Program-made: the position numbers and the translations under genes
Assembly: GCF_001905845.1 (NCBI RefSeq)
Contig: NZ_LIVZ01000001.1
Location: 434,001-498,000 of the forward strand
Direction of reading: 5' to 3'
Origin: Streptomyces sp. TSRI0107
GTDB taxonomy: Bacteria; Actinomycetota; Actinomycetes; Streptomycetales; Streptomycetaceae
DNA: 64,000 nt
Notes under the pieces: generated by a model
Database searches by the model: none
What the model was told of the DNA's origin: nothing
What the model saw: the letters and a program-made list of their open reading frames with translations, nothing else
Part shown: piece by piece, positions 45,289 through 51,447 of the stretch
Numbering within the stretch: position 1 is the stretch's first letter
Layout: every line of letters begins with the position of its first letter

Positions 45289-45301
<13 letters not shown>

Positions 45302-45341
45302 GGTCCGCACGCGCACTGAGGTCCGCACGCGCACCGAGGCC
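45289..45341. repeat. Short tandem repeat, 18-bp unit, across the radical SAM stop codon
   Basis: GCACGCGCACTGAGGTCC occurs twice in full and once with two substitutions. The first unit includes the last codons and TGA of the radical SAM gene, so the repeat probably arose by slippage. Confidence 0.7.
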
Positions 45342-45345
45342 GTAG

Positions 45346-45391
45346 CCGTGAGCCCCCTGTTCCCGCCCTTGGCGGGGGAGGGGGCTCACGG
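45346..45391. terminator. Nested hairpin terminator after the radical SAM gene
   Basis: Outer stem CCGTGAGCCCCCT/AGGGGGCTCACGG with an inner CCCGCC/GGCGGG hairpin; it isolates the radical SAM gene from the accessory genes downstream. Confidence 0.75.
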
Positions 45392-45494
45392 CGTCGCGGG
45401 CCGCCGAACCGCCCAGGCGGAGGGACAGCGGGCGACTTAGTCTGGTCCGAGGGGCGTCATCCGAGTGACGACCGATCCCGGAAGGGGCGTCCTC

Positions 45495-47330
45495 ATGGAT
45501 CAGTACCCGCTGATCGAGAACCACGGTCTGATCGGTGATCTCCAGACCGCGGCACTCGTCACCACCGACGGGACGGTCGACTGGTTCTGCTACCCGCGCT
45601 TCGACTCGCCCAGCGTATTCGGCGCCCTCCTGGACAAGGACAAAGGAGGGCACTGCACGGTCCGGCCGGCTCATACGACGTACGCGACCAAGCAGCTGTA
45701 CCTCCCCGACACGGCGATCCTGGTGACCCGCTTCATGACCGAGGCGGGCGCGGGCGAGGTCGTCGACTTCATGCCGGTGACCGGCACGACGGCCACCGCT
45801 CGCCACCGGCTGGTCCGTATGGTCCGCTGCGTGCGCGGCAGCATGACCTTCGAGGTCGACATCGCGCCCCGGTTCGACTACGGACGCAAGCCCCACGAGC
45901 TGAGCGTCACCGAGCGGGGAGCGGTGTTCGTCTCGGAGGGAACGACCCTGACGGTGCACTCGATCCGTGAGCCGGACGACGAGCGGTTGCTCGGCTTCGA
46001 CACCAGAGGCGACGACCTGCACCTCTCGCTGAGCCTGCGGGCCGGCCGGCAGTGTGGACTGGTCATGGAGTCCGCCGCCGACGGGCCGCCCCGGGAGATC
46101 CCGCTCGCCGAGTACCAGCAGGTCTTCGACGACACCGTCCGGCACTGGCGGTCCTGGCTGGGCAAGTCCCAGTACACGGGGCGCTGGCGCGAGGCCGTGG
46201 AACGCTCCGCGGTGACCCTGAAACTCATGACCTACGCCCCCAGCGGAGCCCTGGTGGCCGCCCCCACGACCGGGCTGCCCGAACAACTGGGCGGCGAACG
46301 CAACTGGGACTACCGGTTCACCTGGATCAGGGACGCCTCCTTCTCCGTGTACGCCCTGCTCGGCATGGGGTTCACCGAGGAGGCGAAGGCGTTCGTGATG
46401 TGGCTCTCCGAACGGGTCAAGGAGCGGGCGGGCAGCGACGGCGACGCCGGACCGCTGAACATCATGTACGCGGTCGACGGCTCCTCCGATCTGACGGAGG
46501 AGACCCTGGAGCACTGGGAGGGCTACGAGCGGTCGGCCCCCGTACGCATCGGAAACGGCGCGGCGACACAGCTGCAGCTCGACATCTACGGCGAGGCGCT
46601 GGACAGCATCTTCTTCGCGCACGAGCGCGGGATGCACCTGGGACACCGGGGGTGGACCGGGCTGATCACCGTCCTCGACTGGCTGGCGGACCACTGGGAC
46701 CAGGCCGGTGAAGGCCTCTGGGAGACCCGCGGAGGCCGTCAGAACTTCACCTACGGCCGCGTGATGTCCTGGGTCGCGTTCGACCGCGCGCTGCGCCTGG
46801 CGGAAGGCACCGGCCGCCCGGGTCCGATACCACGCTGGAGGAGCACACGGGACGCCGTCTACGAGCAGGTCATGGCCAAGGGCTGGAGCGACGAGCGCGG
46901 GGCCTTCGTCCAGCACTACGGCAGCGACGTGCTCGACTCCTCGCTGCTGCGCATGCCGACGGTCGGCTTCATCACCCCGGAGGACCAGATGTGGACCTCC
47001 ACCCTGGACGCGATGGAGCAGGAGCTGGTCACCGACAGCCTGGTCTACCGGTACGACCCCGAGGCCTCGCCCGACGGGCTGCGCGGCTCCGAGGGCACCT
47101 TCTCGCTGTGCACCTTCATGTACGTGGACGCGCTGGCCCGCGCCGGGCGGATCGACCAGGCCAGGCTGGTGCTGGAGAAGATGCTCGGCTACGCCAACCA
47201 CCTCGGCCTGTACTCCGAGGAGATCGCCCTGACGGGCAGGCAGCTGGGGAACTTCCCGCAGGCCTTCACCCACCTGGCCCTCATCGACGCGGCCATCACC
47301 CTGGACGCGGCTCTGAACCGGCGCCGGTAG
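45495..47330 (+). CDS. Glycoside hydrolase family 15 protein (glucoamylase/trehalase-like)
   Basis: 611 aa from the ATG at 45495 with GAAGGGG 8 bp upstream; an in-frame GTG ten codons earlier was not preferred. The N-terminal GH15 domain motif YPLIENHGLIGDLQTAALV and DWFCYPRFDSPSVFGALLD, the WDYRFTWIRDASFSVYALL segment of the (alpha/alpha)6 barrel, GNGAATQLQLDIYGE and the probable catalytic Glu in GLWETRGG are present. No secretion signal, so it acts in the cytoplasm, on trehalose or a short alpha-glucan. A TAGTCT -10-like hexamer sits at 45438. One of three accessory genes splitting the radical SAM/DUF2344 pair. Confidence 0.88.
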   Translation: MDQYPLIENHGLIGDLQTAALVTTDGTVDWFCYPRFDSPSVFGALLDKDKGGHCTVRPAHTTYATKQLYLPDTAILVTRFMTEAGAGEVVDFMPVTGTTATARHRLVRMVRCVRGSMTFEVDIAPRFDYGRKPHELSVTERGAVFVSEGTTLTVHSIREPDDERLLGFDTRGDDLHLSLSLRAGRQCGLVMESAADGPPREIPLAEYQQVFDDTVRHWRSWLGKSQYTGRWREAVERSAVTLKLMTYAPSGALVAAPTTGLPEQLGGERNWDYRFTWIRDASFSVYALLGMGFTEEAKAFVMWLSERVKERAGSDGDAGPLNIMYAVDGSSDLTEETLEHWEGYERSAPVRIGNGAATQLQLDIYGEALDSIFFAHERGMHLGHRGWTGLITVLDWLADHWDQAGEGLWETRGGRQNFTYGRVMSWVAFDRALRLAEGTGRPGPIPRWRSTRDAVYEQVMAKGWSDERGAFVQHYGSDVLDSSLLRMPTVGFITPEDQMWTSTLDAMEQELVTDSLVYRYDPEASPDGLRGSEGTFSLCTFMYVDALARAGRIDQARLVLEKMLGYANHLGLYSEEIALTGRQLGNFPQAFTHLALIDAAITLDAALNRRR

Positions 47331-47472
47331 TCGTTCGCGAGCCACACAAGCACCTCAAGCGGATGTCCGGGACGGTGCGAGCTGACTAGAGTCGTCTCGT
47401 CACAGCCGGTTGTGGGGGCAGCCGGAGTCTGGTCGGCGGTGCCGACGTCCTTGGGGAGGGGACCCGCAGCGC

Positions 47473-49527
47473 ATGAGTCGTCGCTCTGGTGGCCTGGTGG
47501 GAGTCTGGGCCGAAGCGCAGCGTCAGCAGCAGCGCCGGATGGAAGCGGACGCCAGAAGGCGCAGGGAACAGGAACGGCAGGAACGGGCCCGTCAACGCCG
47601 TGCCGCGCAGGACTACCGGGACTACCGGCAGGCGGAGGCACGGCGGCGCACGGACGAACTGGAGGCCCGGGTCGCGGTCCTCCAGGGGCTGCTCGCCGCC
47701 GGATGCCGGGCACCGGCCTTCCGGGCGGCCTCCCTGCTGCGTACCGAGGAGGTGCAGCCTTTCTCGCCGGGCCCCCTGGCCCAGCCCGTACCCATGCCGG
47801 ATCCGGCGCACTACCAGGCGCAGGGCGGATGGACGGCGAGCCGGCGAGCGCAGGCCGAGGCCGAGGCGCGGGCGCGGTTCGAGCGGGACTGGCACGCGGC
47901 GCAGGCCGCCGAAGCCCAGCGACTCCGGCAGCTGGCGGCCTTCCAGCGGGAGTACGAGCAGTGGGTCCGGAACCACGTGACGGAGGTGCGCGGGCACAAC
48001 GCGGGCGTCGCCGAGGTGATCGCCGGGGTCCGCCGAGGGGAGCCCGACGCGGTCGTCGAGTACTTCTCCGCCGCCCTCTACTCCTCCACGGCGTGGCCCG
48101 GGGAATTCCCCCGGGCCCTCACCGCCGCCTACGACCCCGCCGGACGGCAACTGGTCCTCGACTGGGAGCTGCCCTCGTACGACGTCGTCCCGGAGGCCAA
48201 GGCGGTGCGGTACGTGCCTTCCCAGGACCAGGACAAGGAGACCGCCCGCCCCGCGACCCAGCGCCGCGCCCTGTACCGCGAGGTACTCGCCCAGTGCGTG
48301 CTGCTCGCCCTGCACGAGCTGTTCGCCGCGGACGAGTACGGCGCGCTGGAGTCGGTGACGCTGAACGGCTTCGTCGACGACCACGATCCGGCGACCGGGC
48401 GGCAGACGCACATCGTCCTCGCGACCGTCATGGCGCCGAGACCGCGCTTCACCGGCCTGCACCTTGAGCAGGTCGACCCGATCAGCTGCCTGGTCGAGGG
48501 GCTGCGGGGACAACTGACGTCCCGGCCCGACCAACTCGCCGCCGTACGCCCGAGCAGGCGACCCGAGGACGTCGGGAACCGCGTGGTCACCCACGGCGGT
48601 GACGAGGAACCCGACCTGTACACGATGGACCCGATCGCGTTCGAGGAGCTGGTCGCCGACCTCTTCCGGGCCATGGGCATGCAGGCGGTCACGACCCAGC
48701 GCTCCAACGACGGCGGCGTGGACGTCGACGCCCTGGATCCGGCCCCGATCCGCGGCGGCAAGATCGTCGTACAGGTGAAGCGCTACCGGAACACCGTCCC
48801 GCCCACCGCGGTACGCGACCTGTACGGAACCGTCCAGGACGCCGGGGCCAACAAGGGCGTCCTCGTGACCACCTCGGGTTTCGGGCCGGGCTCGCACGCC
48901 TTCGCCGACGGTAAACCGCTGGAGCTCGTGTCGGGCGGTGAACTCGTCGACCTGCTCCACCGGCACGGGCTGCGCGGCCGCCTCGGCGACGGCCGCCCGG
49001 CCCCCGCGCAGCCGGCCGCCGTCCCCCCGGCGGCACCGTCCGCCGACCACAGCCTGCTGGGCATGTCCTGGTCCGGCGGCGTCGCGCTGGACGTGTGCGC
49101 ACTGGTCTGCCGCGGAAACCGGGTCCTCGGCGAGGACCACTTCGTCTTCTTCAACAACAGCCGCACCCCCGACGGTTCCGTGCAGGCCGTCTCCGCGGCA
49201 CCGCCGGACAAGGCGGCCATCCGGGTCGCGTTCGACGCGCTGCCCGAGGCCGCCGACCGCCTCGTCCTGGTCGCCGCCGTGGACCCGGAGGTCAACCCGG
49301 ACGCCGACCTCTCGGGATTCACGGACGCCCGCATCCGGTTGCTCGACTCCGGGACGAGCGAGCTGGGGCGACTGGAGGTCTCCGACGGCCGTCGCGGCGA
49401 GACCGCCCTGGTGCTGGGGTCCTTCCGGCGCCGGCCGAACGGCGACTGGGATTTCGTGGTCGGCGGCAAGGGCTACCCCGGCGGCCTGGAACAGCTCGTA
49501 CAGGAGTACGGCATCGAGGTCGAATAG
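47473..49527 (+). CDS. Mrr-type restriction endonuclease fused to a TerD-like domain
   Basis: 684 aa. Residues 10-70 form a charged coiled coil (EADARRRREQERQERARQRR); about 110-370 is a conserved but unnamed middle domain; about 385-500 is an Mrr-cat nuclease (FEELVADLF, Asp in NDGGVDVDA, QVK in IVVQVKRY); about 525-684 is TerD-like (GMSWSGGVALDVCALV, FVFFNN, ETALVLGSF, WDFVVGG). Mrr domains cut modified DNA; TerD domains bind Ca2+ and act in stress and phage-related systems. The Ca-binding Asp pattern is only partly kept. The start is uncertain (GGAGGGG lies about 12 bp upstream). It could be a membrane-less defence or damage-response nuclease. Confidence 0.82.
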   Translation: MSRRSGGLVGVWAEAQRQQQRRMEADARRRREQERQERARQRRAAQDYRDYRQAEARRRTDELEARVAVLQGLLAAGCRAPAFRAASLLRTEEVQPFSPGPLAQPVPMPDPAHYQAQGGWTASRRAQAEAEARARFERDWHAAQAAEAQRLRQLAAFQREYEQWVRNHVTEVRGHNAGVAEVIAGVRRGEPDAVVEYFSAALYSSTAWPGEFPRALTAAYDPAGRQLVLDWELPSYDVVPEAKAVRYVPSQDQDKETARPATQRRALYREVLAQCVLLALHELFAADEYGALESVTLNGFVDDHDPATGRQTHIVLATVMAPRPRFTGLHLEQVDPISCLVEGLRGQLTSRPDQLAAVRPSRRPEDVGNRVVTHGGDEEPDLYTMDPIAFEELVADLFRAMGMQAVTTQRSNDGGVDVDALDPAPIRGGKIVVQVKRYRNTVPPTAVRDLYGTVQDAGANKGVLVTTSGFGPGSHAFADGKPLELVSGGELVDLLHRHGLRGRLGDGRPAPAQPAAVPPAAPSADHSLLGMSWSGGVALDVCALVCRGNRVLGEDHFVFFNNSRTPDGSVQAVSAAPPDKAAIRVAFDALPEAADRLVLVAAVDPEVNPDADLSGFTDARIRLLDSGTSELGRLEVSDGRRGETALVLGSFRRRPNGDWDFVVGGKGYPGGLEQLVQEYGIEVE

Positions 49528-49600
49528 CGGCCGCGTAACACCTTGGTGACGCGAGGGCCCCCACCGCAACGGAGTGAGCCCTCGCCGTGTCCTCAACGGT

Positions 49601-50602
49601 ATGGAACTGGAAAAGCCGCAGGCGGGCGAGGTCGAGGAGCGACGGCCCGAGGGGTGCCTCACCGTCGCCGTCCGGCTGCCCGTGCGGATCGTCGCGCTGG
49701 TCGTCGTCCTGCCCGTGCGGATGGTGTGGGACGCGCTGGTCGTCGCCGGGCGGTTCCTGAGGGACACCGTGCTGCGGCCGCTCGGGCGGGCGTTGGGATG
49801 GCTGGCGAAGGCGCTGTTCGTCTGGCCGTTCGTGGCGCTGTGGCGGTGGGTGCTGGTGCCGCTGGGACGGGCGCTCGGCTGGCTGGGGAAGTGGCTGGTC
49901 GTGGTGCCGGCGGTGTGGCTGTACCGGCATGTGCTGACCCCGATCGGGCACGGCGTCGCCTGGGTGGCGCGCGGCGTCCGGGCCGGCCTGACCTGGGTGT
50001 ACGTGCGTCTGCTGACCCCGGTCGGACACGGGGTCCTATGGCTCGTGCGGTATCTGTTCGTCGTCCCCGCGGTGTGGCTCTACCAGTGGGTGCTCGCGCC
50101 GGTCGGGCGGGCCGTCGCCTGGACCGTGTACTGGACCTTCCGGGTGCTCTTCGTGCTCCCGGCGCTCGCGGTGTGGCGGTGGGTGCTGGTGCCCGTCGGG
50201 CGGGTGCTCGCGGTCGTCGGGCGCGAGGTCTGGGCCGCGCTGGGACACGCCTGGCGGATCGCCGGGCACATCTCGCGCGCCGTGGGGCGCTTTCTCGGGA
50301 CCCTCTTCCGGTGGATCTTCGTGGAGCCGGTGCGCTGGGTGTACCGCGCTGTGCTGACACCGATCGGACACGCGGTCCGCGACACCGTGCTGCGGCCCGC
50401 CGCCGAGGCCGCCCGCGCCGTGGGACGGGCCACCCGGCGGGCACTGACGTCCGTCCGGGAGAGCGTGCGGCAGGCCCGGTACGACGTCCGCAGGATGCTG
50501 TTCGGTGAGCCTCGCGAGCGGGTGGCGGTGGCCCGGCGGGAACCTGAGGGCGGTGAGACACGTACTCTTGGTAGGAGTACGACCGCTCTCACGAAGGACT
50601 GA
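49601..50602 (+). CDS. Repeat-containing membrane-associated protein, unknown function
   Basis: 333 aa from the ATG at 49601; an upstream GTG at 49574 is an alternative. The core consists of about seven repeats of roughly 30-40 residues, each with a short VL-x-P-(L/V/I)-G-(R/H) turn (LRPLGRAL, LVPLGRAL, LTPIGHGV, LTPVGHGV, LAPVGRAV, LVPVGRVL, LTPIGHAV) followed by hydrophobic, Trp-rich stretches. It looks like a chain of amphipathic or membrane-lying helices rather than ordinary transmembrane spans. The C-terminal 70 residues are basic. It follows the Mrr-TerD gene by 73 bp and may be in the same unit. No family recognised. Confidence 0.7.
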   Translation: MELEKPQAGEVEERRPEGCLTVAVRLPVRIVALVVVLPVRMVWDALVVAGRFLRDTVLRPLGRALGWLAKALFVWPFVALWRWVLVPLGRALGWLGKWLVVVPAVWLYRHVLTPIGHGVAWVARGVRAGLTWVYVRLLTPVGHGVLWLVRYLFVVPAVWLYQWVLAPVGRAVAWTVYWTFRVLFVLPALAVWRWVLVPVGRVLAVVGREVWAALGHAWRIAGHISRAVGRFLGTLFRWIFVEPVRWVYRAVLTPIGHAVRDTVLRPAAEAARAVGRATRRALTSVRESVRQARYDVRRMLFGEPRERVAVARREPEGGETRTLGRSTTALTKD

Positions 50603-50649
50603 AGACACTGGGCAAGCGACAGCCCGAAGGCCCGCCGCCCGCACCCGCG

Positions 50650-51447
50650 GTGCAGCGCATCCGACTGCGCTACACCAAGCGCGGCCGCCTGAGGTTCACC
50701 AGCCACCGCGACTTCCAGCGCGCTTTCGAGCGTGCGCTGCGCCGCGCCGAAGTACCCATGGCGTACTCGGCGGGGTTCACCCCGCACCCGAAGGTGTCGT
50801 ACGCCAATGCCGCACCCACCGGCACGGGCAGTGAGGCGGAGTACCTGGAGATCGCGCTCACCGAGCCGCGTGACCCCCAGCGGCTGCGGGAGCTGCTCGA
50901 CGAGTCGCTGCCGACCGGCCTCGACATCGTCGACGCGGTCGAGGCCCGCACCTCCGGCCTCGCCGACCGGCTGACGGCCTCCGTGTGGGAGCTGCGGCTG
51001 GACGGGGTGGAGCCGGCCGACGCGGCCCGCGCGGTGGCGGCGTTCAACGCGGCCGGGACGGTCGAGGTGCAGCGCCTCACCAAGAACGGGATGCGCACGT
51101 TCGACGCCCGCCCGGCCGTCGCGAGCCTGCGGAGCCTCGACAGCGCGGAAACCCACAGTTCGCCTGCCGATAGGCCGACCGACCAGCCCTGTGCGATACT
51201 GCGGCTGGTTGTTCGGCACGTGACGCCTGCCGTACGACCCGACGACGTCCTGTCCGGTCTCCGCGCCGTGGCCGACCTGGCGCCGCCGGTCCCCGCAGCG
51301 GTGACCAGGCTGGCGCAGGGGCTGTTCGATGAAGAGACCGGCACGGTGACCGACCCGCTCGCGCCCGACCGCGAGGCAGCGGCGGCCCTCTCGACGGCCG
51401 CTCCGGCTGCCGCCGCGACGGCGCCGACGCCGGAAGGTCCCGCGTAG
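50650..51447 (+). CDS. DUF2344 protein (TIGR03936 type), partner of the radical SAM protein
   Basis: 265 aa from a GTG. Starts QRIRLRYTKRGRLRFTSHRDFQRAFERALRRA, and contains YSAGFTPHPKVSYANAAPTG, both typical of the family that is encoded beside or fused to TIGR03960 radical SAM proteins. A CTG at 50608, 9 bp after AAGGA, would give the GKRQPEGPPPAPA N-terminus seen, as I recall, in other streptomycetes, so the real start may be that rare codon. The C-terminal 60 residues are Ala/Pro-rich. Confidence 0.85.
   Translation: MQRIRLRYTKRGRLRFTSHRDFQRAFERALRRAEVPMAYSAGFTPHPKVSYANAAPTGTGSEAEYLEIALTEPRDPQRLRELLDESLPTGLDIVDAVEARTSGLADRLTASVWELRLDGVEPADAARAVAAFNAAGTVEVQRLTKNGMRTFDARPAVASLRSLDSAETHSSPADRPTDQPCAILRLVVRHVTPAVRPDDVLSGLRAVADLAPPVPAAVTRLAQGLFDEETGTVTDPLAPDREAAAALSTAAPAAAATAPTPEGPA

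Follow-up and report, generated by a model that had tools for sequence, protein, structure and literature searches.

A stand-alone Streptomyces gene joining an Mrr nuclease domain with an intact active site to a TerD domain without its calcium loop

The gene described here lies in a stretch of 64,000 nucleotides of the Streptomyces sp. TSRI0107 genome (hereafter the window), begins at an ATG that follows GGGGAGGGG, and encodes a nuclease–TerD fusion protein with an intact active site (Table 1). A first-pass annotation of this DNA had named a coiled coil, an unnamed domain, an Mrr catalytic domain and a C-terminal TerD domain as the parts of this one protein, and Pfam, an AlphaFold2 model and structure matches agree in finding them there. 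In the Pfam search both the Mrr_cat profile (110.3 bits against a cut-off of 21) and the TerD profile (84.8 bits against a cut-off of 25.3) scored far above their cut-offs; the TerD match covers profile positions 24–187, about the first 23 positions being absent. A second profile, NA-iREase1 (PF22722, ‘inactive restriction endonuclease’), matched residues 390–493 with 41.1 bits against a cut-off of 27; this match overlaps the Mrr_cat stretch and scores more weakly than it, and the active-site residues are retained there.

Table 1. Features of the fusion gene and its product (positions are those of the window; residues are those of the protein)
Feature	Position	Strand	Size or basis
Mrr–TerD fusion gene	47473..49527	+	684 aa
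First long helix, coiled-coil-like, residues 8–71	47494..47685	+	AlphaFold2 secondary structure
Second long helix, coiled-coil-like, residues 122–188	47836..48036	+	AlphaFold2 secondary structure
Unnamed alpha/beta domain, residues 189–345, order bbbb-a-bb	48037..48507	+	Model; no Pfam family
Mrr_cat nuclease domain, residues 383–495	48619..48957	+	Pfam PF04471, E=7.3e-32
Active site E391, D413-G-G-x-D417, Q434-x-K436	48643..48780	+	Invariant in 81/81
Variable linker, residues 501–525	48973..49047	+	Mean pairwise identity 0.48; pLDDT <50 at 506–524
TerD domain without Ca2+ loop, residues 528–679	49054..49509	+	Pfam PF02342, E=6.7e-24; ligand map

The AlphaFold2 model of the whole protein (mean pLDDT 83.6, pTM 0.53) contains the two long helices, the alpha/beta domain at approximately residues 190–345, an Mrr fold and a TerD sandwich, with low confidence in the linker and modest confidence in parts of Mrr; because of the pTM of 0.53, the arrangement of the domains relative to one another is unreliable. 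TerD structures align on about residues 520–684 with VIA-align Z scores of 14.1–19.4, and the solved TerD proteins 2kxt (E=2.5e-17) and 3ibz (E=3.1e-16) are matched by the fusion protein in phmmer. For the Mrr part, the nearest folds by VIA-align (Foldseek was also run) are AF1548 (Z 13.3), AspBHI (11.6), EndoMS (11.0) and MspJI (10.9); AspBHI and MspJI are modification-dependent enzymes, and AF1548, which scores higher than either, is of unknown function. The unnamed N-terminal domain, modelled separately as residues 186–372 (mean pLDDT 91.8), found nothing in the PDB at Z of 8 or above, the best VIA-align match having Z 7.2 (104 residues, rmsd 3.6) and the best Foldseek match an E value of 8.7e-3, under the level counted as convincing, and we do not claim a new fold.

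Several known enzymes offer points of comparison. EcoKMrr and ScoA3Mrr (Sco4213) are described as type IV Mrr enzymes, and have in common with the fusion an Mrr_cat domain with the pattern (D/E)..(D/E/Q)xK, but EcoKMrr carries an N-terminal Mrr_N domain where the fusion has helices and a different N-domain, with TerD in addition (PMC3874153). With Mrr_N absent from the Pfam matches at E<=1 and the order bbbb-a-bb predicted for the N-domain, an EcoKMrr architecture was dropped. Enzymes of the MspJI type are described as having an SRA-like domain (PMC12707154), whereas no SRA domain or other known modified-base reader was among the Pfam matches of the fusion at the same level.

The aspartate and QxK residues that the first-pass annotation had pointed to in the Mrr domain correspond to D417 and Q434-x-K436, and these, with E391, are the same in every one of the 81 aligned homologues; loss of the active site in most homologues, which that annotation had named as evidence against its reading, is thus not what the family displays. 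Mean pairwise identity, taken over 600 sampled pairs, is 0.87 in Mrr, 0.76 in TerD, 0.73 in the N-domain and 0.48 in the linker, so that both the Mrr and the TerD domains are under constraint.

The TerD domain is therefore conserved, but not in its calcium ligands. Canonical TerD binds Ca2+, and the ligands of the Klebsiella pneumoniae protein (KP-TerD) are given as positions 40, 41, 42, 78, 79 and 89 for Ca1 and 29, 82, 84 and 88 for Ca2 (PMC8779313, which cites Pan et al. 2011). We mapped these positions onto 81 family members by a MAFFT alignment alone, in which the loop region is short. Position 40 is alanine in 74 members and acidic in none, D78 and N79 are deleted in 80, position 89 (glutamate in KP-TerD) is alanine in 80, and position 88 (aspartate in KP-TerD) is lysine in 55 and arginine in the remaining 26, and no acidic residue stands at 40, 88 or 89 in any of the 81. 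Among the six KP-TerD side-chain ligands so described, D42 is the sole survivor, with aspartate in 80 members; W29 and L41 are also retained. The fusion domain thus has the sandwich, W29, L41 and D42 in common with the TerD proteins of K. pneumoniae (2kxt) and S. coelicolor (3ibz), but differs from them in its shortened Ca2+ loop, the loss of the other ligands and the missing start of the profile. Ligand loss is not confined to the fusion: of ten TerD proteins tested from the 16 matches in the same genome, five keep all six of these side-chain ligands and five have lost several. Because these ligands are lost while identity in the domain is still 0.76, the fusion TerD presumably does something other than bind Ca2+ in the known mode.

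Without TerD, the protein is of a known kind. Residues 16–499 match the PADLOC model mREase_IV (PDLC03663; E=2.3e-60, over model positions 34–527 of 544), and the base protein belongs, by sequence, to a candidate type IV restriction family to which TerD is a lineage-specific addition. TerD-less relatives were found, among the matches listed, in five of 101 genomes of the genus (G021, G054, G076, G084 and G082) and, in other genera, in 12 genomes of the 148 sampled from the class; further partial matches lie on plasmids of Methylobacterium, Xanthomonas, Agrobacterium and others and span the N-domain and Mrr only (about query residues 161–492). In 19 of 20 relatives chosen for closer reading the frame stops shortly past Mrr with no TerD after it; the twentieth (L180) has an apparent frameshift inside Mrr, and its sequence beyond that point was left unjudged. 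All 20 keep the catalytic E, D and K, and 17 keep Q, serine replacing Q434 in the other three (L161, L168 and L169), which have the Mrr part alone in common with the fusion. The mREase_IV model and the TerD-less relatives annotated ‘restriction endonuclease’ have an Mrr domain with the same residues as the fusion, and those actinomycete relatives for which the complete protein was examined share its helical start and N-domain as well; they differ in that no TerD was seen in them, and identity to the fusion is about 31–42%. The N-terminal half has also been found, among the matches listed in the class sample, without Mrr (G352, G366, G332 and G236). For this reason the N-domain is not tied to the nuclease, and it seems to occur with other C-terminal parts.

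A scan of the genome collection returned 182 relatives, of which the best 80, near full length, were kept, and because of this choice the set leans to close relatives; 79 are from Streptomyces and one is from Streptacidiphilus, a member of the Streptomycetaceae. For one of these loci (L039) no same-frame alignment was obtained over the first 63 residues. Within 101 genomes of the genus, a set that overlaps with the 80 loci, the fusion is present in at least 34, as a single match in 32 and as two pieces in G024 and G038, both of which read as one gene in the genomic DNA; one carrier (G072) has an in-frame TAG. A whole fusion was not found, among the matches listed, in the other 67, of which G013 has the TerD part only, in an open frame, and G040 fragments only. 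At least four of 148 genomes in the class sample and at least three of 198 in the phylum sample have the fusion, all of them, among the matches listed, from the genus of the window. TerD addition was seen only in Streptomycetaceae. Three plasmids carry the fusion, two of these copies being annotated ‘restriction endonuclease’, and the most distant copy seen is on a Kitasatospora plasmid, with 46% identity over 92% of the query. A phage origin was considered and dropped: among 50,697 phage records there was no near-complete copy, the five that matched covering at most 23% of the query each, and no relative was found in viral contigs with the patterns used.

The position of the gene varies as well. 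When loci with flanking DNA in common are placed together, the 80 sort into 14 groups at a threshold of 800 nt, 16 at 1500 nt and 23 at 3000 nt; with flanks limited to 4.5 kb per side the groups number 34 upstream and 31 downstream. A gene tree, built quickly and without bootstraps or label shuffling, requires at least 34 flank changes on the upstream side and 31 on the downstream side, roughly one for each group, which indicates that copies in the same place were mostly inherited together and that lineages differ in place. A same-strand gap of less than 50 nt was found downstream in six of 75 cases and upstream in one of 77, so the gene is rarely operon-like, and no constant partner gene was seen among the fusion loci, whose neighbours vary. 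For the neighbour scan each flank group was represented by one locus, with at most two ORFs of at least 80 aa taken from either side; L015 and L057 were left out. Against PADLOC at E 1e-10, these 119 proteins included one helicase-like protein matched by 19 models, three matches to mad3 and single matches to subtilase, IetS and C3a194, the others being mostly ordinary, and no defence island was seen among them; as the scan covered fusion neighbours alone, an enrichment figure would have no baseline. Downstream of one copy (L053:6955-8913) is a helicase-like protein, which we take to be RecQ-like, matching the DpdF, PsyrT and BrxH models, and one plasmid copy (L152, NZ_CP109170.1) has AIPR and PIN genes and two transposases nearby.

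In the window, the fusion and a GH15 gene lie between the radical-SAM gene TIGR03960 and a repeat-protein gene adjoining a second radical-SAM gene, TIGR03936. In five genomes without the fusion at this place the distance from TIGR03960 to the repeat protein is 0.8–4.9 kb, and more in others, so the junction (45301–50650) takes up different genes in different relatives. The repeat protein (49574–50602) has 342 aa with imperfect W/L/V-rich repeats in ‘VLTPxGHxVxW’-like units and no Pfam or NCBIfam match. It starts 46 nt (from a second start, 73 nt) downstream of the fusion, but 42 of the 61 genomes searched from the genus have a match to it, including some in which no fusion was found among the matches listed (for example G007, G009, G016, G020, G026 and G049), and it adjoins TIGR03936 in 13 of 13 DNA stretches examined, even where the fusion is elsewhere (G024); we rejected it as a partner. 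No other TerD match lies in the window; another TerD protein lies about 70 kb upstream, outside the window, and the same contig carries a ter locus at a distance of about 300 kb. The description of the fusion as a lone gene among unrelated genes, without ter genes, therefore holds.

Four things can be read from the sequences directly: how the protein is built, that its active site is intact, that the calcium ligands are lost, and that the gene occurs alone and patchily. Our current working hypothesis, to which we give about an even chance, is that the fusion restricts foreign or modified DNA as a nuclease encoded by a single gene, with TerD acting as a calcium-independent regulator. Restriction is suggested by the intact Mrr site, by the match to mREase_IV and by the accessory pattern; a patchy, lone and moving occurrence is that of accessory restriction genes, and the fusion has the look of a stand-alone restriction gene gained and lost among related strains. 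We counted against this reading the lack of a known modified-base reader among the Pfam matches, the NA-iREase1 match above cut-off, the occurrence of the N-terminal half without Mrr, the mostly ordinary neighbours, the lack of a near-complete copy among the phage records and the low pTM of the model. In such an enzyme the long helices would set the oligomeric state, the helical and N-domain half may recognize incoming or modified DNA, either by some feature of the DNA or by a bound protein, and Mrr_cat would cut the DNA through its PD-QxK site. The C-terminal TerD, as a calcium-independent module binding a ligand or a protein, might restrain or position the enzyme. A role as a stand-alone defence protein is plausible. 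We found no Mrr–TerD fusion in the literature searched, but Anantharaman et al. (2012) may include it, and we do not claim a first report.

The same long helices would also suit a nuclease of the host's own response to DNA damage or stress, working by an oligomeric switch such as that of E. coli Mrr under pressure shock, with TerD as the link to stress proteins. E. coli Mrr is described in a review as switching between tetramer and dimer and as inducing the SOS response (PMC12707154), and the predicted helices could oligomerize; by analogy, they might fit a switch of this kind. We nevertheless consider a stress nuclease unlikely, since 67 of the 101 genomes of the genus are without a whole copy among the matches listed, and the many locations and the fragments are unlike a housekeeping stress gene.

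Another possibility is that TerD gates the nuclease by receiving a nucleoside-like compound that the ter locus is predicted to make, whereupon Mrr would be freed to cut phage or host DNA. Two comparative-genomics papers place TerD among the possible sensors of nucleotide-like signals (PMC7159879, PMC7824862), and the predicted synthesis genes, for a PRTase_2-TRSP-StiP-PELOTA protein, a C-C_Bond_Lyase and a TerC/DUF475 protein, are encoded in this genome beside TerDs. Their locus (L226; G000:C1:777500-794500) has three TerDs, two of which keep all six of the KP-TerD side-chain ligands, whereas the third is without them. Of the 101 genomes of the genus, 99 have a strong match to the lyase family and one (G073) a weak match, 100 in all. 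Because the marker is so nearly universal, its co-occurrence cannot separate carriers of the fusion from non-carriers. The TerD-less relatives manage without such a receptor. We regard gating of this kind as quite unlikely.

A further point in favour of this proposal is a second TerD protein in the same genome (L132:393-2468, minus strand; G000:C2:75395-77467), with an N-terminal TerD at residues 17–190 followed by about 490 residues that have no Pfam, PADLOC or PDB sequence match. These contain an RPD motif with ExK 17 residues past the D, the D and the E-x-K being invariant in 25 of 25 homologous loci, and by this motif alone the protein is a possible PD-(D/E)xK nuclease candidate. Its homologues are patchy too: at least 33 of the 101 genomes have one, 23 as a single match and ten in two pieces. 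TerD may thus have become fused to predicted nucleases on at least two occasions, with the two parts in reversed order. Other TerD fusions in this genome are a TerD-AIM24 protein (L134:2192-3970, plus strand) and a TerD-CAP protein (L137:1136-2449, minus strand). CARF domains gate the Card1 and Can2 nucleases, in which a sensor is joined to a PD-(D/E)xK nuclease; these are a possible analogy only, the fusion having no Pfam CARF match. It would be a long shot that TerD is the receptor of a Ter metabolite and that Streptomyces made a nuclease switch from it at least twice, as the Mrr–TerD protein (TerD C-terminal) and the PD-(D/E)xK-like protein (TerD N-terminal), but if so, the result would be a CARF-like system of metabolite-gated effectors in which signal synthesis at the ter locus is core and the effectors roam as single genes. 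Calcium control, proposed in the first-pass annotation as a nuclease under a Ca2+-binding sensor, is disfavoured and highly improbable, for although canonical TerD binds Ca2+ and Asp-42, W29 and L41 remain, D40, D78, N79, E89 and D88 of the described ligands (PMC8779313) are gone across the family, the last replaced by a positive charge in every member.

The fusion illustrates that the presence of a TerD domain is not in itself evidence of calcium control. It also ties TerD, the ligand of which is unsettled, to a predicted DNA-cutting enzyme in one polypeptide, perhaps with a second such protein in the same genome, and a nuclease readout could make the question of the TerD ligand directly testable.
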